Of a stretch of 64,000 nt of DNA, positions 20,707 to 43,747 are shown piece after piece; the first letter of the stretch is position 1, and the number at the start of each line of letters is the position of its first letter. The stretch lies in assembly GCA_040223695.1 (NCBI GenBank), contig JAVKFU010000007.1, positions 1 through 64,000 on the forward strand, written 5' to 3'. The translations under genes were made by a program, and so were the position numbers. The notes beneath the pieces were generated by a model. It saw only the letters and a list, made by a program, of their open reading frames with translations, did not search any database and was not told where the DNA came from. The stretch is from Deltaproteobacteria bacterium (lineage in GTDB: Bacteria; Desulfobacterota_D; UBA1144; Nemesobacterales; UBA2774).

Positions 20707-20738
20707 CCTTTTCTCCCTCCAAAAAAGCCTTTCTACAT

Positions 20739-22871: not shown

Positions 22872-22944
22872 ATTTAATTTGGAATTTAGAGTTTATTATA
22901 TCTCACTCAGCGAGATATGTCAAGATATTATTTTCACTAGGTGA
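22866..22944. promoter_or_regulatory. operator cluster between divergent XRE genes
   Basis: Three palindromes are seen: TTCCAAATT-T-AATTTGGAA (22866-22884), ATATCTC-N7-GAGATAT (22898-22918), and TCACTAGGTGA (22934-22944). The last two share CACT/AGTG-like half sites. The cluster lies between, and partly over, both start codons. Confidence 0.55.
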
Positions 22945-23315: not shown

Positions 23316-23333
23316 ACTTACAAGAAATTCCAA

Positions 23334-23677: not shown

Positions 23678-23686
23678 CCGGTAGTT

Positions 23687-26867: not shown

Positions 26868-26869
26868 TC

Positions 26870-27163
26870 TTAAAACTGCTTATTGCTTTCCTTCGACCTT
26901 TTTGTATCTCCGAAGAGTGCTAATTCTTTTTTATCTACGTCCTTTCTGAGATCGCTGAATAAATCTCCAAAAAGTGACTCAACTGGGGCATCGAGTATGT
27001 ATGCAAGCTTGAGCGCGTTCTCGAGATTTGGGAGTATCTTTCCACTTTCCCACTTCGAGAATTGCGTAGGGCACGTGTGTCCCAGAAGATAGGCTATCCG
27101 TTTCTGGCCTAGCCTTTTTCTTTTTCTATATTTCCAGATGTGGTTGATTGAACTAATCTCCAT
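26870..27163 (-). CDS. XRE-family regulator of the replication operon
   Basis: A 97-residue protein with IWKYRKRKRLGQKRIAYLLGHTCPTQFSKWESGKILPNLENALKLAYILD, a clear HTH_3 domain. ATG 27163 follows GGAGAG by 10 bases and is preferred over TTG 27181. First gene of the operon leading to the RuvC-like, CHC2 and primase genes; the promoter is at 27409-27437, within a divergent palindromic region. Confidence 0.7.
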   Translation of the reverse strand: MEISSINHIWKYRKRKRLGQKRIAYLLGHTCPTQFSKWESGKILPNLENALKLAYILDAPVESLFGDLFSDLRKDVDKKELALFGDTKRSKESNKQF

Positions 27164-27233
27164 GACGTAAATACTCTCCAAAGAAACATATGGGTGCAGA
27201 ATATCAGCCTCACTAGATTCAGGGAGTCTGGTA

Positions 27234-27253
27234 AATTTGCCTAAACAGGCAAC
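27234..27253 (+). repeat. recurrent 20-bp motif, copy A
   Basis: AATTTGCC-TAAACA-GGCAAC. Conserved element AATTYGCC-N6-GRCAAC with a near-palindromic TTGCC...GGCAA core. Copy lies 71 bp upstream of the XRE gene start and about 570 bp before the serine recombinase. Confidence 0.5.
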
Positions 27254-27408
27254 TCTGAGGGATATAAAAAAACTGCTTAAACGCAGTCTACATTTGAGAT
27301 GAAGTTAAAAATAAAGAGGAATTTCTTCCTCTTTTAGACGATTATATGTTTACTTTGGGTTTGTTAAATAGGGGTTTTGGTCTATTTTATGGCTAAAGAA
27401 TTGGGAAC

Positions 27409-27449
27409 ATAGTAGCACATATTGACAGATTTGTCAATAGTAATAGTAT
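27409..27449. promoter_or_regulatory. overlapping divergent promoters on a palindrome
   Basis: The palindrome TATTGACA-GATT-TGTCAATA (27420-27439) supplies a -35 box to both directions. Minus: TTGACA (27432-27437), 17-base spacer, TACTAT (27409-27414), toward the replication operon. Plus: TTGACA (27422-27427), 16-base spacer, TAGTAT (27444-27449), toward the small protein and serine recombinase. A regulator bound here would control both. Confidence 0.65.
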
Positions 27450-27464
27450 GTTACCACATTCTAG

Positions 27465-27484
27465 TTTGGTTTATTGGGCAAGTT
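27465..27484 (-). repeat. recurrent 20-bp motif, degenerate copy E
   Basis: AACTTGCC-CAATAA-ACCAAA on the minus strand, with GGGAGGG immediately before it as in copies B and D. The right half is poor, so the copy is only tentative. Confidence 0.3.
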
Positions 27485-27530
27485 TCCCTCCCTTTTGCTT
27501 CTTCCGTTTGTATTTCAAGCTTGATACATT

Positions 27531-27737
27531 ATGAACCGCAATGAATCGAAACAAGGCATTAAACAAGGGTACGTAGAAAGATATAAAGAAATGTATAAAG
27601 ACAAAACTGGACAAGAAATCAGTGATCAAGAAGCATTGAGACACTTTGAGAAGCTTCTTATGCTCGCAAAAGCAGTCTATAAACCAATTCCAATTTCTGA
27701 CAACGATGAGAAGCAGAGAAACAGTCATTCACGGTAG
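27531..27737 (+). CDS. small protein preceding serine recombinase
   Basis: A 68-residue charged, helical protein (NRNESKQGIKQGYVERYKEMYKDKTGQEISDQEALRHFEKLLMLAKAVYKP). It lies 88 bp before the recombinase on the same strand and behind the plus-strand divergent promoter. No family recognised and no strong ribosome-binding site. Codon-like composition and position support it. A recombination directionality or accessory role is only a guess from position. Confidence 0.5.
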   Translation: MNRNESKQGIKQGYVERYKEMYKDKTGQEISDQEALRHFEKLLMLAKAVYKPIPISDNDEKQRNSHSR

Positions 27738-27825
27738 GTGGATACCGTAACCTTGTATATTTATCGGCCGGGAGATACAATGCAGATTGTGCTCCATTAT
27801 TAGAAGCAATGCCATCCTTTGATTC

Positions 27826-29622
27826 GTGTACTCGTCACAAGTAAAAATTAAATATTTCGCTTACTGCAGAAAATCTACGGAAGATTCCAAGCGGCAGGTA
27901 GCCTCTATCAACGACCAAAAAAGCGTTATTTTAACACTCGTTGAGCGTGAAAACCTCAATCTTATAGGAGACCCTTTTACTGAAGAAAAAAGCGCGAAGA
28001 AACCGGGGAGACAAGTGTTTAATGAAATGCTCGACAGGATAGAAAAAGAGGAGGCAAATGGGATTCTGTGTTGGGATATTGACAGGCTCTATAGAAACCC
28101 TATAGATGAGGGGAGGCTACGATGGATGCTCCAAAATGGGATTATAAAAGAAATCCGTACACCATATCGGATGTTTTATCCTGACGATGCCGGACTTTTA
28201 ATGGGAGTTGAAGGTGGCCGAGCAACAGATTATGTAATTAGGCTTTCAAAAAACGTAAAGCGTGCCTTCGGAAGAAAACTCAATGAGGGATGGCGACCTG
28301 GGCCCGCCCCTGTCGGGTATATGAACATGGGTGAGACCGGCGCTAAAATAATAGTCCCCGACCCCGAGCGTTTTGAGCTTATACGTAAAATGTGGGACCT
28401 GATGCTTACGGGAAACTATTCGGTTTTGCGCATTAGAGATATCGCAACCCATGAGTGGGGATTAAGAACAAGAGCCACAAGAAAAATGGGAGGCAAGCCG
28501 CTGAGTATGAGTCATATCTACAAGATTTTCAGCGATACATTCTATTACGGATGGTATTTATGGAAAGACCCGGATACTGGAGAGCAGAGATTGTATCAAG
28601 GAATGCATCAACCAATGATCACAGAGCAAGAATTCGCAAGGATACAAATACTGCTCGGTAAAAATACTAACCCCCGGCCCAAGAAACGCACATTTCCATA
28701 TAGTGGGCTAATGAGGTGTGGTGAGTGCACTTCTAGTATTACTGCTGAAGAAAAGAATCAACTTATTTGTGATGGATGCAAACATAAGTTTTCGTATGAA
28801 AATAAAACTTCTTGCCCTAAGTGTGACATCCAAATATCCGAGATGAGAGGACCTAAATTTTTGCATTACGTCTATTATCACTGCACAAAAAAGAAAAATA
28901 CTGCATGCACACAAAAATCGATACGGGTGAAAGAGCTTGAGAGGCAGTACAATGAGCAGCTCCTACGTCTCAAGATTGACAAGGATTATTTTAAGCTCGC
29001 TCTTGATTACCTTCGAGAGACTCAAATGACGACGGCAGAAGAAGAGAAAGCCATTCGCCAGTCATTGCAGAAAGCATACGATAACTGTCAAATCCGTATC
29101 AACAATCTTAATAAGGAATATACCTCGCCCCAGAATGAGAATTACGCTCTTTACTCTCCTGATGAATTTAAATCATTGAAAGGCGAGCTTTTGAAGGAAA
29201 GAAATGGGATTGAACAAGAGCTGAAGAATATAAAACATAATCTTGATAGAACATATGAGCTTTCTGAACGCACATTTAATTTCTGCGTTTACGCCTCTTA
29301 CCATTTCACGAATGGGGATTTTCAAACCAAAAAGGAGATATTCTCTGCCATAGGTTCGAACCTGACGCTAAAGGACGGAAAACTTAGAATTGAAGCCCTT
29401 GAACCGTATATTCTGATTGAGAATGCGCTTTCAACTATACACGATGAAATTAGCAGGTTCGAACCTAACAATAATGGCTTCAATAAAAGAAAAGAAGCAG
29501 CTTTTGCTGCTTCCATTCCAATCTGGCTGGGGACCTTGGAGGACGTTAGAACCTGGATTTATGAAAACCAAGGATGGTTTGATGTTCCGGTATTAGTAAA
29601 AATACTTAGAAAATTATCCTAA
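27826..29622 (+). CDS. large serine recombinase (site-specific integrase)
   Basis: A 598-residue recombinase. N-terminal resolvase domain: YFAYCRKSTEDSKRQVASINDQ, with the nucleophilic serine in RKS. The recombinase domain covers about residues 160-270 (FGRKLNEGWRPGPAPVGYMNMG). A zinc beta-ribbon follows (MRCGECTSSITAEE...CDGCKHKF...CPKCD), then a coiled-coil (about 375-480). This is the architecture of large serine integrases that move phage and mobile cassettes. The GTG start has weak ribosome-binding support. A short hairpin lies inside the 3' coding region at 29494-29513. A related remnant of its C-terminus is found at 30221. Confidence 0.85.
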   Translation: MYSSQVKIKYFAYCRKSTEDSKRQVASINDQKSVILTLVERENLNLIGDPFTEEKSAKKPGRQVFNEMLDRIEKEEANGILCWDIDRLYRNPIDEGRLRWMLQNGIIKEIRTPYRMFYPDDAGLLMGVEGGRATDYVIRLSKNVKRAFGRKLNEGWRPGPAPVGYMNMGETGAKIIVPDPERFELIRKMWDLMLTGNYSVLRIRDIATHEWGLRTRATRKMGGKPLSMSHIYKIFSDTFYYGWYLWKDPDTGEQRLYQGMHQPMITEQEFARIQILLGKNTNPRPKKRTFPYSGLMRCGECTSSITAEEKNQLICDGCKHKFSYENKTSCPKCDIQISEMRGPKFLHYVYYHCTKKKNTACTQKSIRVKELERQYNEQLLRLKIDKDYFKLALDYLRETQMTTAEEEKAIRQSLQKAYDNCQIRINNLNKEYTSPQNENYALYSPDEFKSLKGELLKERNGIEQELKNIKHNLDRTYELSERTFNFCVYASYHFTNGDFQTKKEIFSAIGSNLTLKDGKLRIEALEPYILIENALSTIHDEISRFEPNNNGFNKRKEAAFAASIPIWLGTLEDVRTWIYENQGWFDVPVLVKILRKLS

Positions 29623-29869
29623 TTAACCACACCAAGACACCGCTAACAATTCCGAGGACTCCAATCATGGTTATCATTGAATTGCTGACGAACGATGACT
29701 CGCCTCGTTTTATATTTTCTCCAGTCATCGCGGCTTTCCCAAATAGAGTAACCAAAAAGCCGACTAAAACACCAATAAGTGCTCCTATTTTTAGGCCGGT
29801 TATTATTTTTGCGCCAAAAACGACTCCCCAGAAACTTCCAGTAATGGCCCCTAAAAAAAGCGCTGTAGA
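29606..29869 (-). pseudogene. start-less membrane-protein frame convergent with recombinase
   Basis: An open frame of 87 codons translates to GAITGSFWGVVFGAKIITGLK, then GALIGVLVGFLVTLF and MITMIGVLGIVSGVLVWLI: three glycine-rich hydrophobic segments, clearly membrane-like. A stop codon lies just upstream and no ATG, GTG or TTG precedes the first segment. It overlaps the recombinase 3' end. It is either a remnant, uses a rare start (ATT), or contains a sequencing error. Too strange to call a gene, too protein-like to ignore. Confidence 0.35.
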
Positions 29870-29902
29870 TTATTGAGACAAACATTAATAATATACAAAA
29901 AA

Positions 29903-30148
29903 TTAATGCTCAAGTTTGATGCCGATTTTTTGGGCAATTTCCTGAAACCATCGGTCATGACGGTCCATTCTATTTTTCATCGCTGCCATTTCTTGAAAAT
30001 AGGTATCTGCTTTCTTTATGTACGCGTCTACCGCATTAGTTAAGTTATTTACATCAGCCTTATCCGCTTTATTCTCTAACGTCATCCCTATCTTCTCAAA
30101 CTTCCCATCCAAATATTCAATTAATTCTTTGGAATCATTTTCGTTCAT
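29903..30148 (-). CDS. small coiled-coil protein
   Basis: An 81-residue charged helical protein: LIEYLDGKFEKIGMTLENKADKADVNNLTNAVDAYIKKADTYFQEMAAMKNRMDRHDRWFQEIAQKIG. Heptad-like hydrophobic spacing suggests a coiled coil. No family recognised. It lies between the recombinase and copy B of the recurrent motif. Confidence 0.5.
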   Translation of the reverse strand: MNENDSKELIEYLDGKFEKIGMTLENKADKADVNNLTNAVDAYIKKADTYFQEMAAMKNRMDRHDRWFQEIAQKIGIKLEH

Positions 30149-30195
30149 ATATGTCTATAATAGATTATTTATACTCGCCAAGTCAAAGGAGGGTA

Positions 30196-30215
30196 AATTC
30201 GCCTTTCCAGGCAAC
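30196..30215 (+). repeat. recurrent 20-bp motif, copy B
   Basis: AATTCGCC-TTTCCA-GGCAAC, preceded by GGAGGG (30188-30193). It ends 5 bp before the recombinase 3' remnant, so copies A and B bracket the serine-recombinase cassette. Confidence 0.5.
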
Positions 30216-30220
30216 TTTTG

Positions 30221-30307
30221 CTGGGGACCTTGGGGGACGTTAGAACATGGATTCATGAAAACCAAGGGTGGTTTCAAGTTCCGGTGCTAACTCAAATTGA
30301 ATTATAA
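30221..30307 (+). pseudogene. 3' remnant of a second serine recombinase gene
   Basis: Translates in frame to LGTLGDVRTWIHENQGWFQV + PVLTQIEL then stop. The intact recombinase ends LGTLEDVRTWIYENQGWFDV + PVLVKILRKLS. 20 of the first 23 residues agree. Only the last 28 codons remain, joined directly to motif copy B. This shows that an earlier, related recombinase gene was cut away here. Confidence 0.75.
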
Positions 30308-30347
30308 TTCCATTATATTGTTTTCAGGTTGAATAAGAAGTGCGGGG

Positions 30348-30367
30348 AATTTGCCCATTAAGACAAC
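30348..30367 (+). repeat. recurrent 20-bp motif, copy C
   Basis: AATTTGCC-CATTAA-GACAAC, flanked by TGCGGGG and CACCGCA in inverted orientation. It lies 40 bp after the recombinase remnant and 101 bp before the 3' end of the OLD-family gene. Confidence 0.5.
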
Positions 30368-30468
30368 TCTCACCGCAGGAACAGCTGTCTTTCAAAAAAC
30401 AGGAAATTACCGACTATTAGATTTTACAGTTAGTGTCCTTTGAGATATTAAGCTTGTCAGCCTAATCA

Positions 30469-32280
30469 TCATGGAATCCCGTAAATCTGGCGAAGTTTTG
30501 CTGTGAATGGAGTCGGCAGACTGCCACTATCTACCAATGAAACAAAATGATTCAAAACCGCTAGTGGCTTATTACGGCCTTGATAAGAAAAACCAAGTTC
30601 ATCCTCTATAGTAGGGTTGTAGGTTATTACTGGCGTTCCAGCACGAACAGTGCTTGCTATAAGAGCATTGTCTGGATCGGTGGAATTGTCAATATCATGA
30701 ACAACAAGATAATCAATTTGAAAATGATTTAGGACCCTACAAAACAAAGGGATAAGGTCCTTTGAATGACAATTGATAAACGTCGTATCGCGCTTCTGGC
30801 CTGGATCGGCTGAAAAGAAACTAAGCAGATCGGGTGCCTTTTGGAAAACTGCCATTTCTGTATCACCCTCTACAAGTACGACTCTTTTTGCAAAAAACAG
30901 TTCGTTCACCGCCGGATCAAACTCCAGAATCATACGAAAACGATCTCTCTCCTCTCGTGCACTCGTACCTGAAAATATATCAGTCATAACTTGCAATGTA
31001 CTCACATTACGATTCGCATCCTTCTGAAAGCGGACAATATTCTTATGACTATCGGAAATATCTATAAGCGTAGGAGAGTGCGTGGTACAAATGACCTGAT
31101 ATTTATCTTGAGCCGTGAGTGACATAAGTACATCTTTCATACGCCGTAACATATGCGGGTGCATATAGATCTCAGGCTCTTCAATTCCAAAAATTACCGA
31201 TCGTTTGTCCCAGCCTTCCGTATTCACGCCATCAACCGCTCGTGAATAATCATTAAGGATTTGCAACAATGTAATGACAAGACAACGTTGTAAACCATGT
31301 CCTTGTAGTGGCACATCTGTTTTGAATCCATCGTCTATTTTCAAAACCGTGCCTGGTAAAATATGAGCATTTAGATCAATGTCTTTAGGTTCGATGAAGG
31401 CTTGCGCTTGTATCACTGACGAAAGTTTGTCAGTGATATCGGTTTCAAGTTGCGAAATCTCTCCAGCCTGAGTCCACTCCGGATGTGCAGCGTCTGGTTT
31501 GAACAGAGCCTGAACACGCTTCAATTGTTCATTTAGAGCAATTACTTCGGGCTTCACAGCTAGCTTTCTTTCAAGAATTAGGTTAATAATTTTCCCGTAA
31601 GTAGTTATGTCTTTTGCCTTCGTTTCTTCACTTACATCTTGAACGGCTGGAACATAAACGAATTGAGGCAAAATGCTGTTTGCATTTGATTTCCAACTTC
31701 CCCCGCCCCCAGGATTGTTGGCCCAGTCGTTAGTATATGTTATTAATTCCGGGCGTGTTTCTCTTATTTTTTGTCTAAGCAACTCTTTGGTTGCTTCGTT
31801 ACATCGATTATGTCCGGCTTCTGTTCTAACTTCTGCTATCAATTCATTAAATTCATCGGGCCAGCCATTTGTCCAGGTCGTTCCTTGCTCCGGCCACCCA
31901 GTTATTAATTCAATACGTTGATATGAAAAGTATTGTTCTTCCCATACCTCCTTATCACCATCGACTTCAAGCCAGAATTTCTTCCGTAGTATCCACTTAT
32001 CACCATTCATGCGGCCCTGAACTGCGGGCTTAAGCCTTTCTTCCTCAGTCAATTCCGTGAAATGGCCAATAAATTCAATTGCAGACACCTCATCGCAGAT
32101 TTCATTTCGATAAAGTCCCCTGTCTTTGATCTGCTTACCGCTCAAGAAAAGCTCCAGTGCTTGTAACACTGTAGATTTACCAGCATTATTTTCTCCAATA
32201 AGAAAAAGAATTTCATCCCATTCGAGACTGATTGAACTTAAGTTCTTGAAGTTTTTGATTTCAAATTTTATGAGCTTCAT
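30469..32280 (-). CDS. OLD-family AAA+ ATPase/TOPRIM nuclease
   Basis: A 603-residue protein. N-terminal ABC/SMC-like ATPase: Walker A LIGENNAGKSTVLQALELF (residues about 28-46), and Walker B/D-loop in VIFGIEEPEIYMHPHMLRRM. H-loop region TTHSPTLIDI follows. A C-terminal TOPRIM domain has the glutamate in VVLVEGDTEMAVF (about 465) and DxD in VVHDIDNSTD. This is the OLD (overcoming lysogenization defect) nuclease layout used in antiphage systems such as Gabija GajA, but no GajB-type helicase is adjacent, so it is a class-1 solitary type. A hairpin lies just upstream. The gene is A+T-rich cargo. Confidence 0.85.
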   Translation of the reverse strand: MKLIKFEIKNFKNLSSISLEWDEILFLIGENNAGKSTVLQALELFLSGKQIKDRGLYRNEICDEVSAIEFIGHFTELTEEERLKPAVQGRMNGDKWILRKKFWLEVDGDKEVWEEQYFSYQRIELITGWPEQGTTWTNGWPDEFNELIAEVRTEAGHNRCNEATKELLRQKIRETRPELITYTNDWANNPGGGGSWKSNANSILPQFVYVPAVQDVSEETKAKDITTYGKIINLILERKLAVKPEVIALNEQLKRVQALFKPDAAHPEWTQAGEISQLETDITDKLSSVIQAQAFIEPKDIDLNAHILPGTVLKIDDGFKTDVPLQGHGLQRCLVITLLQILNDYSRAVDGVNTEGWDKRSVIFGIEEPEIYMHPHMLRRMKDVLMSLTAQDKYQVICTTHSPTLIDISDSHKNIVRFQKDANRNVSTLQVMTDIFSGTSAREERDRFRMILEFDPAVNELFFAKRVVLVEGDTEMAVFQKAPDLLSFFSADPGQKRDTTFINCHSKDLIPLFCRVLNHFQIDYLVVHDIDNSTDPDNALIASTVRAGTPVITYNPTIEDELGFSYQGRNKPLAVLNHFVSLVDSGSLPTPFTAKLRQIYGIP

Positions 32281-32326
32281 GGATTCAAGGTTATAAGCAT
32301 TTTTATGATTCTCAGACTCCGAATCA

Positions 32327-32353
32327 ATATTTCATTTTTTTAGAATGAAATAT
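32327..32353. promoter_or_regulatory. 10-bp-stem hairpin upstream of OLD gene
   Basis: ATATTTCATT and AATGAAATAT pair perfectly across a 7-nt loop. It lies 47 bp upstream of the OLD-family start. The rest of 32281-32828 is A+T-rich with no gene. Confidence 0.45.
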
Positions 32354-32828
32354 AAGCAGTAACATTAATTAAACATCAAATTGATGCAATTTTTCAAGTC
32401 GGATAAAGTGGCTATGAAATGATATCACCTCCACAGTATTTCATTTTTCTTTGTTCCTTGAAGTCCCTATATTTTCGCTATGGTACATCCCACGAATGAT
32501 GTTGTAAAGAATAATCATTTTTTTGATTAATTGCCGACATGATCAATGTCAGTCTTGAGTAAGCAGATTAATGTCATTAGTATCGTAATAATCCTTATAT
32601 TATCCTTCACATTGCTGAGTTCTCGAAGAATGATAACGTCATACATTGATTTCGACAATCTGCTGAACTGCTCCCTATAGTAGGCGAATAAGTTAAGTTA
32701 GATTTATGACAAATAACTCTATATATTGTTCATTGGAATGCTTTGGTAGCGTAAATTCATCTTAACTTAAATTTAAGCTTAAACCGAAACTCACAAAAGG
32801 GGATCAGTCCTTAAAGAGGTAACACTAA

Positions 32829-33965
32829 TCATAACATCAAATCTGCATATAATTCTCCAAAATTAATATCTTTAATATTTCTTCTGTCATATTCGTTCCT
32901 TAATGTTATTAAAGTCTCTTGAAAATTTATGCTAGAACATCCATTTTTTATTGCTTCACGGGCTTCTATAAATGCAGCGAGATGATCGCATGCTTTAATA
33001 ATATCACCATCTCTTATAAGTTCTCCGTTAGATGGATCAGTAATATCCTCAAATTCATTTTCACAGAAAAGTCCTAACTCTTTATGCCATTCTTCTGGTA
33101 CTAGTTTGTATATAATATCCATCTCTTCTTTTTCGTATTTTTTGATCAATTCATCAAGACCCGGAATAGATCTCTTTACAGGCGATATGATATCTCGAGT
33201 GAGAACTTCAGGTAAATCGTGAAAAAGACCAGTGAAATAATTATTGAAAGTCCTTTCGTGAGAAGCACCGTTCGTCAGAGAAAAAAGATAGGACATTATA
33301 GCAACAAACAGTGAATGTCCAAGAACAGAAGTTTTAGGTATCCTATGAAGATTAGACCATCTAGCCTGAAACCTGAGTTGCGCACAAAGATCTATGAATT
33401 TTAGAATACTAGGTTTGGCGCTCAATGATTTCACACATTCTAATTCTGAATAACGCTCTATTTGATCTATCAAGTTTTTTTCAACATCCTCAATTTCGAA
33501 TCCACCAGGATTGATATTCTTAATAAACTTGAATTCCCAATATGAGGCTTTAAGATGAGCATACTCCAGAATTTTTTTATTTTTTGTTTCCTCATAATTT
33601 GAAAAATAATCATTAAATCTTTGAAAAAACTCATCATCCATGTTTGATATTAATTGCTCCCATTCTTTAACTACATTTTTTCTTAAAGTTTCATACTTTT
33701 CTGGATCACTTTTTATCTTATAGAAAATTGGTGGTTTTAAGTCAGTTACAACAATCCGTTGAAGAAGTTCAAAAATTCCCCCCTCAATTATCTCGATCCA
33801 ACTAATACCTCCATTCTCCTCCTCTAATTTGCCTAGAACATAGGCAATCACCATCTTATGAGCTTGTTTATCTAGTTCTATGAATTCTATAGGTCGTGGT
33901 TTATCATTCCATCTTTGCATGTACGCAGAATCAAAAATCCTTAATAATAGTGAAATTCGTATCAT
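32829..33965 (-). CDS. HD-domain phosphohydrolase
   Basis: A 378-residue protein. The C-terminal half has RIPKTSVLGHSLFVAIMSYLFS, FHDLPEVLTRDI and IKACDHLAAFIEA, giving the H...HD...D metal ligands of YfbR/HDDC2-like HD phosphohydrolases (nucleotide 5'-phosphatases). The N-terminal half, about 160 residues, also begins HD-like (IELDKQAHKMVIAYVLG) but lacks the HD pair and is unassigned. GGAGG stands 8 bases before ATG. It stands in a cargo island, where nucleotide depletion would be a plausible antiphage role; direct evidence is absent. Confidence 0.75.
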   Translation of the reverse strand: MIRISLLLRIFDSAYMQRWNDKPRPIEFIELDKQAHKMVIAYVLGKLEEENGGISWIEIIEGGIFELLQRIVVTDLKPPIFYKIKSDPEKYETLRKNVVKEWEQLISNMDDEFFQRFNDYFSNYEETKNKKILEYAHLKASYWEFKFIKNINPGGFEIEDVEKNLIDQIERYSELECVKSLSAKPSILKFIDLCAQLRFQARWSNLHRIPKTSVLGHSLFVAIMSYLFSLTNGASHERTFNNYFTGLFHDLPEVLTRDIISPVKRSIPGLDELIKKYEKEEMDIIYKLVPEEWHKELGLFCENEFEDITDPSNGELIRDGDIIKACDHLAAFIEAREAIKNGCSSINFQETLITLRNEYDRRNIKDINFGELYADLML

Positions 33966-34974
33966 GCCTGAAACCTCCGCATTGGTTATTTGGAACTCTG
34001 TTACTCTTTATTTTTATAGGTTACGAGTTCCATAGACGTTTGGTGTAAAGCAGATGTAATTTTACTATGGATTACCAATAAAACTGGGTGATAAAAATCT
34101 AGTGATGTGAAAATAAAAACTAAATTTAGATTAGGCATAAGTATACTAACCACAATTAAGCATTCTCCTTAATTAATCTTAATATATTTGAGTCTTTCTA
34201 TAGAAAATGATTATAATGTGATTTGAAACTAGAACTTATTAACTTATAAATTTTATCAACGTAATTTTAAGATTTGGTTCATCGTTGATTTCGCATTCCA
34301 ATATTTCAATGATTGACAAGCCTTTTCTCTGTAACAGGTTTATGTTTTTCATCCCTAGGCTTATTTCTTTGAGTTATATTTTCCCGAAAATTTAAATTTG
34401 TTTTTGGGAGTTTTGCTCTCTTAAAAGCATCGTGAGCATGCCAAAAAATCCATCCACTAAAGTGATTTTTTTGTGCCATTGAAGAACAATATCCGTTTTA
34501 CTATATAGCCTATTATCGTGTAATTGATATCTAAAACCCAAGTTAAAATAGTAAACTTTGGACAATCAATTCTGGAGCTGTATTTTTACATTTTCCACAA
34601 GCCATTATCTCACTTCTTGTAGTCGCTTGAACGCTTAAGCTTCCTAACTGTATTATTAGACTTCTTACAAATAATAATCCAATGTATGTGATTTCTAAGA
34701 TTCAACTATTATGATATCATACACTTGGATATAGACCACCTGCTCCACAGGTTACCTTATCATGGAATAAAAGACGGATCTTGAAAGCAAATTTCTTTCA
34801 ACTAACGAGAGAATTATATAAAAATATCTAACTCTAAAGGTAGACCGGTTTCCGGAGACTTGACAATAAAATATTGCTGCTTTGTGAATGGATATAGAAA
34901 GTAATTTTATGTTTTACCGGACTATTGGTAATAATTAAATAACATAACAGATAATTGTGTGGGAAGTTCAGCAA
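33966..34974. other. about 1 kb A+T-rich interval with little coding signal
   Basis: I see no protein gene above 60 codons, no repeat array and no RNA gene. The one item of note is a minus-strand frame at 34306-34479. Promoter-like A+T-rich hexamers are many and not informative. Confidence 0.4.
34306..34479 (-). CDS. possible 57-residue basic protein
   Basis: An ATG-initiated frame gives MAQKNHFSGWIFWHAHDAFK and continues RAKLPKTNLNFRENITQRNK to a stop after RLVNH. It is basic, with tryptophan and histidine clusters that are uncommon in random A+T-rich frames. No family and no good ribosome-binding site, so it may be a remnant. Confidence 0.3.
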   Translation of the reverse strand: MAQKNHFSGWIFWHAHDAFKRAKLPKTNLNFRENITQRNKPRDEKHKPVTEKRLVNH

Positions 34975-36840
34975 GTGGGATTCTTATCACGACTAATTGG
35001 AAAACTAGGCAAACATACAGGAGAAAACACAGTAGCTCGTGGTAGTGAAAGAGGAAAGCACCATGGTCAAGGGGAGGTGCCTAACAACATTAATTTAGAT
35101 TCTATCGAATATATTCCTTTACCTCAGTCACCTTGTACATGGGAACTTGATGGGCGTGACGGTTTTCAACGGGAATATGAAGATCCTCTATTAAAGGAAA
35201 TATTTCAATATGGGTGGCAAGGAAAATATACAAAGGTAATAAATCTATCCAAGAAGTTAAGTATAGATCGTCTCTCTGGCCAACTAGGTCAGATAGTTGC
35301 CAAAGCTTATCGTAATACTGTCCTGAAGCGTCTCAGGGCCAATCAAATTAAGTCTGCTGCACGATGGGCAAAGGAAATGCTCGATACTGTCCCCACACAT
35401 TGTACTGATACCGACAAAAGACGTTTGAACAAAATCATCCTTAAATTAGACAAGGCAAAGATTAAACATAAATTTCTACCAGTAGATGTTCCTCCGCCAA
35501 GTAGTGAACCACTATTCACATTATCCAAGGGGGATAAATGGAATATTCTTGAAGTCAAAACGCTCCCGAAGGATGAAAGACCGGATAAAACATTTCAGAT
35601 CTTGGGTGTCACTTTTGATGGGGTTTTATATGCTGACCGAAATGGAAAGAGCGAGTTGGCTTCTGGCGGTCCTTCTGCACTGCGGAAACTTGATCGATCA
35701 GGGAAAGTTGTTGCTGAGCGTGCTATAAATCATGACATATATAGAGTTGGTTTCAAAGCAACAAGTAAGTACTGCATTATCATGGATAGTAATGGGTGCA
35801 TTTATATATATGATAACTTTCTTAAATTGATAGCTAAAAGCGACTTACAAGAAGATAGACGAGTTAAAGAACATTTTAGAACCACAGATACGAACTATTG
35901 GGGCGAGTTTCGAAGTCAGGTCCGAGCCGTTGACGCGAGCACTGACGGGAGATATTACTTGTTTACGCTTGCCGACGAGGCTTGGTGTTGTTCATTGGAT
36001 GGTGAGACGGTCTGGGGTGTTCGGATGCCACTAAATGAAGGGTGGGTGCGTGCAGTTGGTCAGAGTGCGCAACCTGATCTAGGAATTGAAGTCGAGGAAG
36101 CGCTAAAAACACTTGGACTGACTCTTCCGATAACTCCACAGGAAATCAAACAAAAATATAAGAAGTTGGCACTAAGACATCACCCTGATCGAAACCCTGG
36201 AGACACTGAAGCAGACAAACGCATGCAAGAAATAAATGAAGCTTTCCAAATACTTACCGGCATAGACCCGGCTAAAATCGATATCGTGGTTGAAGATTCA
36301 GAAACAACATATTTTCGCCGTGAGACGCCGGACCACGTGATTGAATCTGGATCAATTCGACTGGAATTTTGGGGTCTAAGCGGACCAGCGCAAGACTGGA
36401 TTTACTGTGCTTCATTTTTAGCACACAGCACTGGAGCATTTCTCCTAACATACTCGGGTAAAGTGGTTGAGGTGGATAGTAAAGGTCTACCTTTACGGGT
36501 CTACGATATTGGTGTAGTTCCAGACGAAATTGTAGAGGTAGGTAACTATATCTACATACTCACTTCAACTCGTTTATATGTCTTAGAACAAAAAAATAAT
36601 CTCATAGCTTTCGTAGATGTGTTCCGCAAGGGAAGATTGCTTGTGACAACTACAGGCTTCGGCCTTCTGGATAGTAAGTGTTTCAAGTGGTTTACACCAT
36701 CTGGTGACCAGTCGGGAGAGGTCATTACACGTCACCCAATTCGAGCATTATACAATTCAGAGTACGGCATTGTGATTGAGACTCGACAACATCGCACAAC
36801 CATAAGTGGTCTGAGTCTATTTGATTCAACCAAACATTAG
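34975..36840 (+). CDS. J-domain protein with propeller-like flanks
   Basis: About 621 residues. A canonical J domain sits at about residues 380-430: ALKTLGLTLPITPQEIKQKYKKLALRHHPDRNPGD, with the HPD triad that stimulates Hsp70. Before it lie about 200 residues of repeated short beta strands (FQILGVTFDGVLYADRNG, YCIIMDSNGCIYIYDNF, VRAVDASTDGRYYLFTLADE). After it the same style resumes (GAFLLTYSGKVVEVDSKG, NYIYILTSTRLYVLEQ). These are WD40/propeller-like strands interrupted by a J domain. The N-terminal 180 residues are helical and TPR-like. GTG 34975 follows GGGAAG by 8 bases. Function unknown; cargo-island position suggests defence or chaperone-linked sensing. Confidence 0.7.
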   Translation: MGFLSRLIGKLGKHTGENTVARGSERGKHHGQGEVPNNINLDSIEYIPLPQSPCTWELDGRDGFQREYEDPLLKEIFQYGWQGKYTKVINLSKKLSIDRLSGQLGQIVAKAYRNTVLKRLRANQIKSAARWAKEMLDTVPTHCTDTDKRRLNKIILKLDKAKIKHKFLPVDVPPPSSEPLFTLSKGDKWNILEVKTLPKDERPDKTFQILGVTFDGVLYADRNGKSELASGGPSALRKLDRSGKVVAERAINHDIYRVGFKATSKYCIIMDSNGCIYIYDNFLKLIAKSDLQEDRRVKEHFRTTDTNYWGEFRSQVRAVDASTDGRYYLFTLADEAWCCSLDGETVWGVRMPLNEGWVRAVGQSAQPDLGIEVEEALKTLGLTLPITPQEIKQKYKKLALRHHPDRNPGDTEADKRMQEINEAFQILTGIDPAKIDIVVEDSETTYFRRETPDHVIESGSIRLEFWGLSGPAQDWIYCASFLAHSTGAFLLTYSGKVVEVDSKGLPLRVYDIGVVPDEIVEVGNYIYILTSTRLYVLEQKNNLIAFVDVFRKGRLLVTTTGFGLLDSKCFKWFTPSGDQSGEVITRHPIRALYNSEYGIVIETRQHRTTISGLSLFDSTKH

Positions 36841-36994
36841 TCAAGGTAAACTAAGGCTTATGAGTTATTTTAAAATAAATAGCTACTGACTCATATACAG
36901 AAACGTATTTTGAATAATATACTTTGAGAAAACTTTTTGATATTATCCCTTTTTCCACTTCCCAAGATGATTATTGTTCTACTATCAGCAGACT

Positions 36995-39436
36995 TCACCC
37001 AAATTTCACCTCATACCCTTGTTCCATCTCCTTGGCATGCTCCGGATGGCAGGTCATCACCAGCACTTGATGTTTCTTTGAAAACTCATAGATACCATCA
37101 ACAGCCTGGTTTCGGCGATCAGGATCCATATCGACCAGAGGATCATCCAGTACAACCACACCCAACCGCTTATCCATGAGATGATCACACAAGGCAAACC
37201 GCCAAGCCAAGGCCACTGACCCTTTTGTACCATGGGAAAGCAGTTGAAAAGTCAATTCCTGCTTATTATTCGTCACAAACGCCTCCGGCATATCCTGCTC
37301 CATCCTCACCGTCTTGAACCGCTTGCCAGAAACAATTGAAAGCCACTTCAGAAATGAATCCTTTACACCTTTAAAAGTATCCACATCAAGAGAATTCAAC
37401 AGCTCTTCCGTCTTTTCTTGAACACGGGCCAGAATCTCTGCTTCTCTGTTAATTCGCTCAAATTCCGCCTCGGCTTCTTGCTTTTGTGCATTAAGCTCTT
37501 CAGAAGAAGTATCTGATGCCTGACCTTCCAAACGGGCCCGCCCCTCCTTATTTTCTGAAATCTTTTCCTTAAGTTCGCTAATTTCCTGATCCAATTGATC
37601 CATATAATTTAAAAAAGATTCAGCAGATTCAAATTCCTTCGGTAAGTCAGGAAGTACCTCGACCTCTTTATTCAAATCCCGATATTGAACTAGAAGATCA
37701 CCCAGTGCCTCGGCGACTTTATCATGATTATCATATTTATTCTTCCATTCAGCCAACTGGCCTTCCTTCTCCAGCTTCTCTTTTTCGAGTCCATCTCTTC
37801 TGGATGTAGCCTCTGCCAAATCTTCAGAAATCTTTATAGAGTCCCGTACCTCTTTATCAGGCTTGTATTCTTCTAGCTTCTGCTTCAACATCTCTAGATC
37901 ATCATCTCCCAACCCTTCCCGGAATTGGTTTTCGGCCTGTTCCAGATGAAACAGCTTATCCCGGTACAGTCGCTCCATCGACTCCGCCTCTTGAAGATCC
38001 TGCGCCCCTGCCTCCTTAAGCTTCCTACTAAATGATTCTCCTTTTTCCTCAAGCTCCTGTACAGTCTGCTCGATATCCCCGTCACCAGAAAAAACGCTGA
38101 TCTTCAGCTCATTGGTTTCCAGCGTAAATCCACCAGTAGCTGTCCTCTTTTTCTCATCTCCCTTATTAAGAGAAATAGTCTCAGAATTTTCCTTACTAAC
38201 CTCCTGCCAATCAAATTCCGTATCGACTTTACCTTCCACCGATATTCTTAGCTTCGCCGCTTCCACCCGAGCTTCCAGACGATCCATATGCACATTAAAA
38301 TTCCGCAGATCAGTAATTTGCTCTTCGGTTACCTGTGTGGCTTCCTCCACCTCTCGTTTCATCTCACCGGCTTTTTTCTTTAAATCCTCCAGATTTTGGA
38401 TCCGTTCTTTAAGCATTCTCAATTCCTGCTGCTTCTGCACTTGTTGTAATTCCTGCTGATACTGATTAATGTGCTGCTCTAATTCTTTAATTTGAGTCGC
38501 AATACTCTCAAGCCGCTGATCCAACAACGGCCACTGCTTATTGATCTCCCGAATAGATTCCAGTTCTTGTCCAATTTCCTTCAGTTTATACTCTTTATTC
38601 TGTCGCCGTTGGATTCCACTCTTCAGAGGACTGAGCTTCTCATGATCTTGCTTTTTCTCCTGAAGCTGCTCTGTCAGCCATCCTATTTCCTTATTCAAAC
38701 CATCAAGTCTTTGCTCAAATTCCAGCGCAGATTCATAATCGATCTTGGACTTTTCCTTTCGATAAAATGCTTCCACCACCTTACCGAGTCCAACTTTATA
38801 CGGATTTTGAATACCCCGGTTGTTTTCAGGATACTGCTGTCCTCGGTTCCATTTTTTAAAATAGTTTTCAAACTTGTCATCCACGATCTTCCGGAAACGA
38901 TCCACAGAAATCCCACCCGTCTCCATCACGCTTTTCCGCAACACCGCTCCCAGCTCATTCCGCACCTGTTCTTCCTGCTTCATCTGTTTCAGTGTCTCCT
39001 GAAGGCCAGACTGATTCGACAACAAAATCGTTCGCATTGTGGCCGGTGATACAGGTAACAACTCAAAAATCTGTTTTTGAACGTCCTCTTCGTTAGTGAT
39101 TTCCGTTCCATCCGGAAGGCGGATACTAGCACTCCCCTCACGATTCCCTTTTTTCCAGGTTTTCTGAATGTGCACCTGCGAACCTTCTTCCAGTTCGAGT
39201 AATATCTTCAGGCGGATAATGTCACCTCCACCAACCGGGAAAAAGTTGCCCATTTCATCTTCCAGTTGCCTAGCCGTCTTGCTGGTGGATGTTAGAAGTC
39301 CGTGTACCACCGCCTGAAACAGTGTAGACTTGCCCGCCTCATTAGGCCCAAGCAATATATTCAGTCCATTTTCAAATGAAAAGGTTTTGTCTTGGATCGC
39401 CGCATATGGGTGTAGCCGGATGGATCTAATTCTCAT
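36995..39436 (-). CDS. SbcC/YhaN-like SMC-family ATPase
   Basis: An 813-residue protein with split ABC ATPase halves around a long coiled coil (about 200-700). Walker A is LLGPNEAGKSTLFQAVVHG (residues about 31-49). The C-terminal signature is LLSHGTKGSVALAWRFAL and Walker B VVVLDDPLVDMDPDRRNQ. It is shorter than E. coli SbcC (about 1,050). It overlaps the metallophosphoesterase gene by 11 bp, the arrangement of SbcD-SbcC and of YhaO-YhaN, the nuclease complexes that process DNA ends and hairpins. Situated in the cargo island rather than with chromosomal repair genes. Confidence 0.8.
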   Translation of the reverse strand: MRIRSIRLHPYAAIQDKTFSFENGLNILLGPNEAGKSTLFQAVVHGLLTSTSKTARQLEDEMGNFFPVGGGDIIRLKILLELEEGSQVHIQKTWKKGNREGSASIRLPDGTEITNEEDVQKQIFELLPVSPATMRTILLSNQSGLQETLKQMKQEEQVRNELGAVLRKSVMETGGISVDRFRKIVDDKFENYFKKWNRGQQYPENNRGIQNPYKVGLGKVVEAFYRKEKSKIDYESALEFEQRLDGLNKEIGWLTEQLQEKKQDHEKLSPLKSGIQRRQNKEYKLKEIGQELESIREINKQWPLLDQRLESIATQIKELEQHINQYQQELQQVQKQQELRMLKERIQNLEDLKKKAGEMKREVEEATQVTEEQITDLRNFNVHMDRLEARVEAAKLRISVEGKVDTEFDWQEVSKENSETISLNKGDEKKRTATGGFTLETNELKISVFSGDGDIEQTVQELEEKGESFSRKLKEAGAQDLQEAESMERLYRDKLFHLEQAENQFREGLGDDDLEMLKQKLEEYKPDKEVRDSIKISEDLAEATSRRDGLEKEKLEKEGQLAEWKNKYDNHDKVAEALGDLLVQYRDLNKEVEVLPDLPKEFESAESFLNYMDQLDQEISELKEKISENKEGRARLEGQASDTSSEELNAQKQEAEAEFERINREAEILARVQEKTEELLNSLDVDTFKGVKDSFLKWLSIVSGKRFKTVRMEQDMPEAFVTNNKQELTFQLLSHGTKGSVALAWRFALCDHLMDKRLGVVVLDDPLVDMDPDRRNQAVDGIYEFSKKHQVLVMTCHPEHAKEMEQGYEVKFG

Positions 39437-40538
39437 CTTTTACCTCTTGGATTATTTCGTAGGCCATTTGCAATGCCTGTTCATCCTCATCTTCAAAGAA
39501 TTCAGAAAGCAGCCGATAGGGAAAAGACCCTTCGGGGAATTCCTGCCTGATCTGCTCTCTAGTCACCCGTTGTACTAAATCGCTATCATGCAATTTCAAT
39601 TCCAGCACGTTTTTTCTAAGCGTCGGGAGGGTTGACCTCCACTCATCATACAACTCAGGATCCAGATGCCCTTCCAAGGTAAGTTGAAGGACTACATGGG
39701 AATAATCATCCTTGGTAATAGAATCCACCAGCTTCTTCAGATCCTGCTCCTTTTCCAACGTCTCGAGACGCTGTACAAACAGGTAGGTTCCGGTGCTAAG
39801 TATTTCGGCCTCAATTTCTTTATTTTCATTTATTGTGATAAAGAAAGCGTGTCCTTCATGCCGGCAGTCGAAACCGTCAGGCTCGGGGGTACCCGGATTA
39901 AAAATTAAATCCCTGTTCCCCGGTTTTTCAGGCCAGGTAACATGCGTATGACCCAACAGCCAGATATTCACTCCGGTATTCTTGAGTTCTTTTAGTATCA
40001 TGGGATAATATCGCTGTTCAAAATCCGGTGATACTCCTTCGATACTTCCATGAGCTATGCCAATTTGAATCATTTCCTGGTTCTTTTCAACTTCCCTGAT
40101 CCAGCCGATAGCGTTTTCATTCGAATGCTTGGCATTGCAGGGACCGGGATAGACCATAGCTTTCAAGTCATATTCTTGCAGATCCATTGGTTTAGGGTTA
40201 CTTAGCACAATAACATGCTCATCTGCCTCCTTAGCAAACCGGCTCCACAGTTCGCTGTCTTCTGTTATATAGTCATGATTCCCTGGTAGCACTAAGACTA
40301 CCTTTCCCGAAAATCCATTGATAGCCCTCACAGCCCTTTGTACATCACTAGTATTCATAGAAGTGCGATCAAACAGGTCACCGGCAATACTCAGAATGTC
40401 AGACTTTTTTTCATTTGCCAGTCTTACAACAGATTCGAGAGTATCATATCTTGCCTGGATCAACTTATCCTGAGCTTCAGGATGGTCACGAAAGTGGCGA
40501 CCGAGGTGAAAATCAGCAGTGTGGAGAATATTAATCAT
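39426..40538 (-). CDS. SbcD/YhaO-like metallophosphoesterase nuclease
   Basis: A 370-residue calcineurin-like phosphoesterase. Metal-binding motifs run in order: INILHTADFHLGRHF (D.H), ILSIAGDLFDRT (GD), VLPGNHDYI (GNHD), GIAHGSIEG, and WLLGHTHVTWP (GHTH). It is the partner of the overlapping SMC-like ATPase. The C-terminal 120 residues form the usual capping domain. Start ATG 40538 is the first in frame, with no strong ribosome-binding site. The upstream interval to 40973 has no gene except a terminator. Confidence 0.8.
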   Translation of the reverse strand: MINILHTADFHLGRHFRDHPEAQDKLIQARYDTLESVVRLANEKKSDILSIAGDLFDRTSMNTSDVQRAVRAINGFSGKVVLVLPGNHDYITEDSELWSRFAKEADEHVIVLSNPKPMDLQEYDLKAMVYPGPCNAKHSNENAIGWIREVEKNQEMIQIGIAHGSIEGVSPDFEQRYYPMILKELKNTGVNIWLLGHTHVTWPEKPGNRDLIFNPGTPEPDGFDCRHEGHAFFITINENKEIEAEILSTGTYLFVQRLETLEKEQDLKKLVDSITKDDYSHVVLQLTLEGHLDPELYDEWRSTLPTLRKNVLELKLHDSDLVQRVTREQIRQEFPEGSFPYRLLSEFFEDEDEQALQMAYEIIQEVKDEN

Positions 40539-40905
40539 TTCGATTTAATTGCAACTTTTAACCAACATGTTATATCAGTTTTTATCCATTGGCGGGTTCG
40601 GATCATTACCGTGACTGTCGGAACAAGAAATTCGCCCATCTTGATTATGGGTACGGAGTTCGTTGAGCTTTTTTATATTTTAGAAGTGATTCAAAATAGC
40701 TCTTCCTACTCCCGAATTGTAACCACAACACAATCTAAATTTCAACCACGCCTATTGAGTATTATTAACACGTACATTTTTTTCTTCAATAGGCCTGAAT
40801 AAGTATTTTCATAACACTTTTTAATGTTGCTCAAAGTTGCTGACCAACTTTTTAAGATAAATTTTACTTTCGATCTGTATTAGAGTTAACAAAAGAATAA
40901 AAATA

Positions 40906-40926
40906 GGACGGTAATTACTACCGTCC
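40906..40926 (-). terminator. intrinsic terminator
   Basis: GGACGGTA-ATTAC-TACCGTCC forms an 8-bp stem and 5-nt loop. On the minus strand TATTTTTATTC follows, ending the 42.1-40.97 kb operon; on the plus strand TTTATAG follows, weaker. Confidence 0.75.
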
Positions 40927-40973
40927 TTTATAGCGTGTTATTATGCTGATATTAAGTTGTAAATGTACTGATA

Positions 40974-41265
40974 CTAAGGAGTGTTCCTCTCTGCTGTTTT
41001 CAATACTCCAGTCAAAACTACCATTAGAATATGCTTGCAGATATTCTCATGCACGAATCTGTCAGGGCACGAACAAAAGTACTTCCCCGATCCATTGATC
41101 CCTACAGCATATTCCTTCGTTTCATCTTGAACATACGCTCTTGTCTCATTCGCTTCTTGCTTGCTTGAGTATGTTTATCTTATAGCTTCCATCTACAACA
41201 GCTTTCAACGCCCTTCCTACCCGTGCTTCATCCGCTTTGTGGATGAACTCAAATTCTGCCTTCAT
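40974..41265 (-). pseudogene. frameshifted SWIM zinc-finger protein gene
   Basis: ATG 41265 with GGAGGTGA upstream begins MKAEFEFIHKADEARVGRAL and stops after 39 codons. A +1 shift near that stop (about 41148) opens a second frame: NETRAYVQDETKEYAVGING, then KYFCSCPDRFVHENICKHIL, to a stop at 40974. CxC followed by CxH is the SWIM zinc finger. The two halves join well, so this is a small SWIM-domain gene broken by one frameshift, or else a programmed shift or read error. Start overlaps the preceding gene. Confidence 0.65.
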
Positions 41266-41698
41266 GGTGAGTCACCTCCCCGCTATCAAGTGAATTCAGG
41301 AGATAGCTTTCGATCCTCACGAGCGTCACGATTTGCTCCAGGACTCTTAATCTCCTTTCAAGAATTTCAACCTCAGCCTTCATGAACCTTTCTTGCTTTT
41401 CGAGATGGTCGTACTGCATCTTGAGTGTTTCGTACTCGGAATTATTCTTAAGCCTTTTCTGAATTTCGGCATTTCTCAGAGTATCGTTTGAGAACATCTT
41501 CTTGCCGTTATCATCTGACTCGGTTGCTACCTCATAAGCAACTGCGGTTTCAAATTCCTTCATCTGTTCTGTAAGCGAATGCTTTTCATCAAATAGCGTT
41601 ACAAAATCCAACTTCTTTCTCTGGAATGAAGCTATGAGCTCCTTAAGCTCATTCTTTAGATATATTGTTTCAGATATGATTTGATCCATGTTCATCAT
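41249..41698 (-). CDS. coiled-coil protein of unknown function
   Basis: A 149-residue charged helical protein: IISETIYLKNELKELIASFQRKKLDFVTLFDEKHSLTEQMKEFE in the first half and a long heptad-like helix in the second. No family recognised. It lies between the SSB-like gene (9 bp away) and the SWIM gene (overlapping), so the three are an operon. Probably a DNA-maintenance accessory protein of the element, by position only. Confidence 0.55.
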   Translation of the reverse strand: MMNMDQIISETIYLKNELKELIASFQRKKLDFVTLFDEKHSLTEQMKEFETAVAYEVATESDDNGKKMFSNDTLRNAEIQKRLKNNSEYETLKMQYDHLEKQERFMKAEVEILERRLRVLEQIVTLVRIESYLLNSLDSGEVTHHEGRI

Positions 41699-41707
41699 TA
41701 CCCTCCG

Positions 41708-42106
41708 TTAAAATGGAATGTCTTGCTGATCGTCATGCACTTCATCATCTTTCTTGATCGGTTCATAGACATACTCCTCCAATTGCCGTGCGGCAGATTC
41801 CACCTCTTCAGTAGTGACAGAATTCCCGTTGGTCTTCAGCATCTCAACAGCCGAGCGTATTAGAGAAAGCCTCGTGATACGGACATCTTTTGCCGTTATG
41901 CTCGCTTTCATTGCTTCCTCCGCATTTATAAACTTCAGCTCCTTTATCCACTTTTTGTTTTTACCGTCTACCCTGATTTCAACCGCGTCTCCCTCTTGCG
42001 GATTATCTACAGGGTCATAGTGGGAGAAGTTAAACCAGTTGTTCCCTATCTTTATCCCTTTATCGTTTACTGACTCTACGATTCCTTTTACTGTCTTTGT
42101 TTTCAT
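41708..42106 (-). CDS. SSB-like OB-fold protein with acidic tip
   Basis: A 132-residue protein. The N-terminal 60 residues alternate short strands (VKGIVESVNDKGIKIGNNWF, GDAVEIRVDGKNKKWIKELKF), consistent with an OB-fold. The C-terminus DDEVHDDQQDIPF closely matches the DDDIPF tail by which single-stranded DNA-binding proteins recruit repair and replication enzymes. Sequence elsewhere is too different to call it SSB. First gene of the three-gene operon. A ssDNA-binding maintenance role is likely. Confidence 0.65.
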   Translation of the reverse strand: MKTKTVKGIVESVNDKGIKIGNNWFNFSHYDPVDNPQEGDAVEIRVDGKNKKWIKELKFINAEEAMKASITAKDVRITRLSLIRSAVEMLKTNGNSVTTEEVESAARQLEEYVYEPIKKDDEVHDDQQDIPF

Positions 42107-42294
42107 AAATGACCTCCTTGTCTTTGGAATATATAGACGGGAGGGGTGAGCCTACCGCCTGGATAGTACACATCACCCCCTTTACCGTTTACCGGATACA
42201 CCCCTGCCATATATCCTTAAGGACTGGACTCATTCCGGCTTGAGTGCAGTTGGTCCGTTAGAACCAGACTCTGGCAGGAGAAAACAGGCAGGTA

Positions 42295-43413
42295 TCAGTG
42301 AACTGCGTACTGGACTTGAGGGTTCTCCCAGTTTGAAAAATCAACCTGGGGAGCGAGATTGTCCAGGTCCCAGTTTTTCTTGAACATGAGTCCCCCTGCA
42401 TGGATCAGGAGATTGAGCCTGTCCTTTTCAGGGATATGGGTATAGTGAGACCCTATCTCGGTCAAATGATTAAACACCTCATAGGCGTTTATAGGAGTTC
42501 GTGCAGAGGATTTCCAGGACAGGGATGCCGGTATCGCCTCGGGATTCTCGTAGCCGTATGCTATTGCAACTCGCGTGATAGGAATCCTTCTTTCAAGATC
42601 AGGTACAAGTATTTCCCCGTCTTCATCTTTGAGCCTTGCTATATACGAGTAGGAATTCTCGAGCTCTCTGTATGAGAGCCTCTTTTCGGTCAGCGCTGAT
42701 AGAGCTTCGGGATAGCGCGATATTCTTTCGGGTTCATCCAAAATCAGATCGACAGCGTTTAAAATCCTCTCAACATTCCTGCTCTTAAAATGCATCCCTC
42801 CATAAGTGGGAGCGTAAGTCATGTTTGTACAGATTAGCCGTAAGAGGGATTCCGATATTGAGGGCGCGTACATCTCTAGGCTTGATGCCGAGAATCCTAT
42901 TCCGTATCTGAACAGGTCTTCGCTCTTAGCTTCGATTGGACAGAAAGTAACCGGGGTGTAGAAAAATGCTGATGACGAAACATCGTCAATATCGACAACC
43001 ATATTTTCTACACCAGCCTCCTCATGTACTTTCCTGTATATATCGTCAGTTATCTCAAGGAATCTCCTCAGAGATATGAAACTGCTCCGTCTCGGGAAAA
43101 GACCGATCACGGTGAGTGATTCGTCATCCACCTTGAATGTGATCTCCTTCTGAGACCCCGTGGTTATCCTGCCCGAAAGCTCCTTCCACAGATCAGGCAT
43201 CTGTGAAGACATTGAGCACGCAAAGTAGTAGGGCACTCTGAGTACCCGGCATAACTGGCTTGCGGCTCTTTCGGAAAGTATGTATTCCCTGAAGTCCAAG
43301 GCTATCTTCCCTATTTCGGATGTTGGAACAATATCCGAGAGCCGCGCATGAACATATGACTCGTCAATCGAGCCGTTCAAATCCCTGACCTCTTCGATTG
43401 AGGTTAAACGCAT
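42295..43413 (-). CDS. DUF932-like phage/plasmid protein
   Basis: A 372-residue protein. Its general pattern (DFREYILSERAASQLCRVLRVPYYFACSM, VTFCPIEAKSEDLFRYGIGF, THIPEKDRLNLLIHAGG) resembles DUF932 / phage-plasmid-like proteins, found on mobile elements and sometimes linked with anti-restriction. No enzyme motif is visible. The match is from general pattern, not a decisive motif. The interval 42107-42294 upstream of the SSB-like gene is C-rich with short inverted repeats but no gene. Confidence 0.5.
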   Translation of the reverse strand: MRLTSIEEVRDLNGSIDESYVHARLSDIVPTSEIGKIALDFREYILSERAASQLCRVLRVPYYFACSMSSQMPDLWKELSGRITTGSQKEITFKVDDESLTVIGLFPRRSSFISLRRFLEITDDIYRKVHEEAGVENMVVDIDDVSSSAFFYTPVTFCPIEAKSEDLFRYGIGFSASSLEMYAPSISESLLRLICTNMTYAPTYGGMHFKSRNVERILNAVDLILDEPERISRYPEALSALTEKRLSYRELENSYSYIARLKDEDGEILVPDLERRIPITRVAIAYGYENPEAIPASLSWKSSARTPINAYEVFNHLTEIGSHYTHIPEKDRLNLLIHAGGLMFKKNWDLDNLAPQVDFSNWENPQVQYAVH

Positions 43414-43466
43414 ATATACACCTCCTTAATATGGATTTTTTAAAGAACTTACGGCAATCCTCTTTC

Positions 43467-43631
43467 TTACAAGGACGGGCCGTGAAATAACGCTTTCACA
43501 AGCTCAACGACGAAGTTCCCTCCGGCGACTATCAGACCTAGGAAGACCTCGACGCTGAAGCCTTGGTTGACTCCGATCCCCAGCATGATGAGGAGAATTG
43601 CCACTGAAACTATGAAGCTTAAAATGCTCAT
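43467..43631 (-). CDS. 54-residue two-segment membrane protein
   Basis: Short ATG frame with GGGGAG upstream: MSILSFIVSVAILLIMLGIG, then NQGFSVEVFLGLIVAGGNF and a tail ending HGPSL. Two hydrophobic segments, like small conjugation or holin-type proteins. It lies just before the DUF932-like gene on the same strand and opposite the second transfer ATPase. No family assigned. Confidence 0.55.
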   Translation of the reverse strand: MSILSFIVSVAILLIMLGIGVNQGFSVEVFLGLIVAGGNFVVELVKALFHGPSL

Positions 43632-43676
43632 ATGCTCCCCATCTTAATGAACTGTGTAGATTGCAATAGGAGGGAT

Positions 43677-43696
43677 AATTTGCCTGAAGAGACAAC
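43677..43696 (+). repeat. recurrent 20-bp motif, copy D
   Basis: AATTTGCC-TGAAGA-GACAAC. It is nested in a larger inverted repeat: AGGAGGGATAATTTG (43669-43683) with CAAATTTCCCCTCCT (43698-43712), 13 of 15 paired. It lies 51 bp before the second transfer ATPase gene. Confidence 0.55.
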
Positions 43697-43747
43697 CCAA
43701 ATTTCCCCTCCTATCTGGTCACTTCTTTGAACTATAGAGTAGAAAGA

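Follow-up and report, generated by a model that had tools for sequence, protein, structure and literature searches.

Organisation of the element

The window, that is, the whole 64,000-nucleotide stretch of DNA that was analysed, was found to encode an XRE-type HTH regulator, a large serine recombinase (LSR1) and a TrwB/TraG-like ATPase (TraG2), with copies of a short dyad motif (sites A to E) situated among these genes (Table 1). A tyrosine integrase gene (58926-59990) was identified beside a tRNA-Arg gene at 60104, and this segment (58926-60180) probably represents the element's own integrase and right end. Together with the presence of a Replic_Relax-domain gene, this suggests that the element is integrative and mobilizable. 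A second copy of the tRNA-Arg end, which would mark the left end of the element, was not found within the window.

A related element, likewise near a tRNA-Arg gene, was identified in a genome of the same family but another genus (G002). Positions 14932-27493 and 40900-44907 of the window align to it in blocks (72-81% and 78%, respectively), with the homology stopping at 27493, the last base of site E, and the content of 27493-40893 being replaced by other genes. The counterparts of sites A, D and E (A', D' and E') are retained in this sister element. No relative of LSR1 was found in G002, which possesses another large serine recombinase (L129:2022-3860) that is approximately 22% identical to the LSR1 family where alignable; the recombinase type differs between the two elements while the motif stayed. 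Genes of anti-phage type were found in the variable region of both elements, being OLD/AriA-like and LmuB-like in the window and GajB-like, PD-Lambda-3_B and PDC-S06 in G002. The first-pass annotation had proposed that sites A and B, and sites C and D, bracket two modules. This is only partly right: the variable region covers approximately 27493-40893, sites A and D lie inside the conserved backbone, and the left border is formed by site E and not by site A.

Table 1. Features of the window discussed in the text.
Feature	Coordinates	Strand	Remarks
XRE-type HTH regulator gene	26870-27163	-	Pfam HTH_19; ATG at 27163; 83% identical in G002; proposed reader of the motif
Site A	27225-27253	-	Operator-like dyad; XRE start codon (27163) 61 bp downstream; A' is its conserved counterpart in G002
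Site E	27465-27493	+	Degenerate copy, oriented towards the 68-aa ORF and LSR1; left border of variable region; profile score 28.2 (also a training site); conserved as E' in G002
68-aa ORF	27531-27737	+	Between site E and recombinase gene; resembles small ORFs upstream of the family's other recombinases (G099, L044, L059 and L054)
Large serine recombinase LSR1 (598 aa)	27826-29622	+	Pfam Resolvase and Recombinase
Site B	30187-30215	-	Operator-like dyad; start of ORF 29903-30148 (-) 38 bp downstream
Orphan recombinase tail, LSR1 type	30221-30307	+	Directly right of site B
Site C	30339-30367	-	Operator-like dyad; no intact gene in front
Orphan recombinase tail, G002-recombinase type	30361-30420	+	At site C; frame read by hand
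Cargo of variable region	30469-40538		OLD/AriA-like gene; HD-domain, DnaJ-domain, SMC-like ATPase and phosphoesterase genes
Site D	43668-43696		Operator-like dyad between small membrane ORF (43631, -) and TraG2 (43748, +); conserved as D' in G002
TraG2, TrwB/TraG-like ATPase gene	43748-44932	+	Pfam TrwB_AAD_bind; 89% identical in G002

The motif and its association with promoters

A pattern search of the window with AATTYGCC-N6-GRCAAC gave exact matches at 27234, 30196, 30348 and 43677, all on the plus strand. When the search was extended to the whole 3.03-Mb genome (G000), no exact match was found beyond these four, the chance expectation being approximately 0.1 per genome from base-count arithmetic. 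The four clear copies described previously are thus real. Among 195 genomes searched, G000 included, the exact pattern was present in 25, mostly as a single copy per genome and unclustered. With three mismatches permitted, matches in the window reached background level, which calls for caution with weak candidates. Site E, the degenerate copy at 27465, which also belongs to the ten-site training set of the profile described below, scored level with sites A to D and is kept in G002, while a further candidate at 46246 fell below the profile threshold and is unsupported.

The core of the motif is the dyad TTGCC-N6-GGCAA, whose 6-base spacer differs among copies, as had been claimed. The dyad usually continues as NTTTNCCCTCC on the gene-facing side, with the gene start 36-61 bp away. 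The GGAGGG reported just before several copies is indeed present (or its complement), but it lies on the gene-facing side or sides. This C-rich arm is oriented towards a gene start, and at sites situated between divergent genes (site D, and 9647 in L054) it is present on both sides. This explains the inverted repeat noted at site D, for which arms of 15 bp had been given; its outer arms, ATAGGAGGG...CCCTCCTAT, pair at 15 of 17 positions as read from the sequence.

A profile of 29 columns was built from ten sites of the window and G002 only, with the spacer set to zero, and was run on independent elements with relatives of XRE, TraG2 and the recombinase. For promoters chosen while exploring, each tested as a single region with 200 shuffles, matches were obtained upstream of XRE in G099 and L101 (P 0.005 each) and in L054 and L046 (P 0.010 each), upstream of TraG2 in G099 and L054 (P 0.005 each) and L101 (P 0.015), and upstream of an ArdC-like gene in L054 (P 0.015). 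The XRE promoter of L051 (P 0.13) and the TraG2 promoter of L046 (P 0.095) were without a profile match, and the site at the XRE promoter of L059 (P 0.025) was low-scoring, unlike the motif and not convincing. In scans of whole elements, the two best matches in G099 and L101, and the best in L054 and L046, were the XRE and/or TraG2 promoters. Overall, six elements have the motif at the XRE promoter, and five of these also have it at the TraG2 promoter (L046 being the exception), whichever recombinase was present. In contrast, the 3' junctions of 22 recombinase relatives, a comparison that had been proposed for the att sites of related enzymes, showed the motif at background by the profile, other than in L054, where the match is the XRE promoter; values of P 0.03-0.05 at the junctions of L055 and L056 are as expected among so many tests. 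The motif therefore goes with the XRE and TraG2 promoters and not with the recombinase. An alignment search of IMG/VR with the XRE protein returned three weak matches, the promoters of which lacked a strong site.

These results support the earlier suggestion that the copies are operators of an element regulator, and we consider it likely that they form the operators of an XRE regulon of a mobile element. One point in favour of this reading is that the G002 recombinase is of a different type (approximately 22% identical) while A', D' and E' stay. The XRE protein would bind its own promoter (site A), the promoter of the operon of the small ORF and recombinase (E), the region between the divergent membrane ORF and TraG2 (D) and the promoter of a module gene (B), with site C being a probable relic. 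Against XRE operators stand the observations that the recognition helices of the XRE proteins vary between elements sharing nearly the same motif, that the XRE relatives of L051 and L059 have no convincing site, that site C does not precede any intact gene, and that two near-identical copies flank a module in G099. Small HTH regulators adjoining dyad sites at their own promoter and at transfer or recombination promoters are familiar from the repressor-operator regulons of phages and ICEs, such as those with lambda/434-type operators or SetR-type regulators. The present case differs in its conserved C-rich arm facing the gene, in the position of some copies at module junctions and in that binding is predicted. 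The extended dyad, TTGCC-N6-GGCAA-NTTTNCCCTCC, provides a portable signature for the predicted regulon of this type of mobile element, which occurs in unrelated, mostly uncultured bacteria.

Recombinase tails and module arrays

Relatives of LSR1 were identified at 22 loci (34-44% identical); a search of IMG/VR with LSR1 found none. Most of these proteins end in tRNA-antisense peptides (e.g. RDSNPR), and ARAGORN located an antisense tRNA at the point where LSR1 homology ends in 13 of the 22 loci. The overlap amounts to 3-9 bp in 11 loci and to 18 bp in L058, while in L049 the tRNA begins 51 bp further on. LSR1 itself, L054, L046 and G099 instead carry a native tail (LEDVRTWI-like). In L043, L045, L049, L050 and L058, matches to this tail were found at a distance of 6-10 kb on the upstream side of the recombinase; these are weak (tblastn E 0.006 at best, the others 0.08-1.7) and each alone is compatible with chance, although all five share a VR or VRT core and the same strand. 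The data fit an attachment core that lies within the recombinase's own ORF, at its 3' end, with a family crossover point at approximately 29526 in LSR1 as judged from the alignment and the tRNA junctions. Integration would fuse the recombinase body to the tRNA and strand the native tail at the other end of the element, where it seems to lie displaced in integrated copies (L041-L058). Myxophage Mx8, in which attP lies inside int and integration replaces the integrase C-terminus, may offer a parallel for this exchange, though with another recombinase class and no known arrays. A serine recombinase family of this kind would swap its C-terminus on integration, and whether the tail controls the direction of recombination is testable.

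Further repeats of recombinase 3' segments were observed in other elements. In L133 (6091-6177, 7811-7939 and 11319-11365) such a segment recurs as a 100% inverted copy adjacent to a tRNA-Ile gene, and another inverted copy, of 47 bp, lies at a distance of 3.4 kb; these look like att duplications. An inverted repeat of a recombinase 3' segment was seen in G116. Additionally, an acidic small ORF recurs just upstream of the recombinase gene (window 27531-27737, L131:13603-13761, L044, L059 and L054:9714), and at a guess it could be a candidate directionality factor.

Recombinase tails detached from any recombinase gene were found beside the motif. The stretch to the right of site B encodes 26 residues with 81% identity to the tail of LSR1 (E 1.3e-10), and it starts at the crossover codon of the family. 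In G002, copies s1 and s2 precede tails of the type of that genome's own recombinase (E 2.6e-28 and 2.5e-9), with which the stretch after site C shares 80-83% identity over 53-60 bp. These tails start approximately 5-20 bp to the right of the motif at B and C, and likewise at the two G002 copies. Sequence comparison gives good support for serine-recombinase insertion scars next to B and C, so that the scar reading of the first-pass annotation is partly right for these two copies; the scars are the orphan tails and not the motif itself. As orphan tails adjoin B, C and two G002 copies, the insertions appear to have occurred beside operators. The recombinase would be an internal gene of the element. 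Earlier insertions next to module ends that carry an operator would have stranded the tails now found immediately to the right of B and C, and defence modules would have come to form integron-like arrays by a mode of capture that we infer.

Several modules with similar sites between them adjoin a single recombinase in G002, which has three tail-containing repeats, and in L104 (from IMG/VR), which has four sites. The latter is a recent-looking array with four copies of another site, one of them inside the recombinase 3' end; a 194-nt segment is repeated at 95%, and each site opens a recombinase-like tail (read by hand). Its four site-plus-tail units stand in tandem behind the serine recombinase (L104:12703-13940), two of them being approximately 160 bp and without another gene. 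A serine-recombinase counterpart of the integron is a tentative proposal, in which non-autonomous defence modules would insert in the recombinase 3' end, each bringing a new C-terminal tail for the recombinase at one end and an operator of the host element's regulator at the other. As in integrons, one recombinase gene heads a row of modules separated by short sites; the differences are a serine rather than a tyrosine recombinase, double-stranded dyads rather than folded attC sites, and an activity that is putative. Accretion beside ICEs and IMEs is described for CIMEs and microCIMEs (PMC7563491), which are similar in that non-autonomous modules, and here tail-only units of approximately 160 bp (L104), are stacked beside a recombinase gene at a gene 3' end, but in the present case this 3' end is the recombinase's own, with displacement of integrase tails as the consequence. 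A literature search, in which subscription journals were thinly covered, did not turn up any account of cassette arrays of serine recombinases in which tails are displaced, which is weak evidence of novelty. Whether defence modules accumulate via the recombinase is likewise open to testing.

Alternative readings of the motif

The motif could itself be a serine-recombinase attachment site, with A to D being attL/attR scars of successive insertions, as had also been proposed. The location of B, C, s1 and s2 at module borders agrees with this, and the best remaining evidence for the motif itself as a recombination border comes from G099, in which exact 22-nt copies flank a 1.67-kb module and one copy is not at a promoter. 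However, A, D and E belong to the conserved backbone and their centres drift, the motif persists despite a change of recombinase type, the junctions of related recombinases with tRNA genes lack it, the attachment core of the family lies in the recombinase's own 3' end, and the crossover at B is to the right of the motif. The outer arms of D show a 5-bp offset relative to the inner dyad, as would be expected of zinc-domain motifs in a hybrid att site (PMC3783163); this interpretation of D was rejected, as the two arms face two divergent genes, which is also the case in L054. Sites A and D were also considered as attL and attR of one element, and this was rejected as G002 keeps both sites in conserved backbone with different centres. 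The central dinucleotide is AA in both A and D of the window but is not shared by A' and D'. On balance, an attachment site is an unlikely explanation.

It is very improbable that the motif is a composite, that is, an operator adopted by the recombinase or by module ends, with modules arriving with an operator aboard. The motif lies within approximately 5-20 bp at all four orphan-tail junctions of the window and G002, compared to three other copies per element, but in L104 and in the tRNA-integrated relatives the tails are not accompanied by this motif. Binding by another element protein (e.g. a RuvX-like nuclease) or a promoter for a special sigma factor would suit the directionality of the motif towards genes and the RuvX-like genes of the same elements, yet there is little probability in it, given that the dyad is of the kind bound by HTH dimers and that a copy precedes XRE itself in all six elements. 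The XRE operator reading is retained as the preferred one.

Beyond these sites, a stand-alone DUF4113-domain ORF and a UmuC-like polymerase gene were observed close together (45956-46225 and 49959-51239); the polymerase gene has this domain at its end, and a type IIG restriction-methylase gene is situated between the two.
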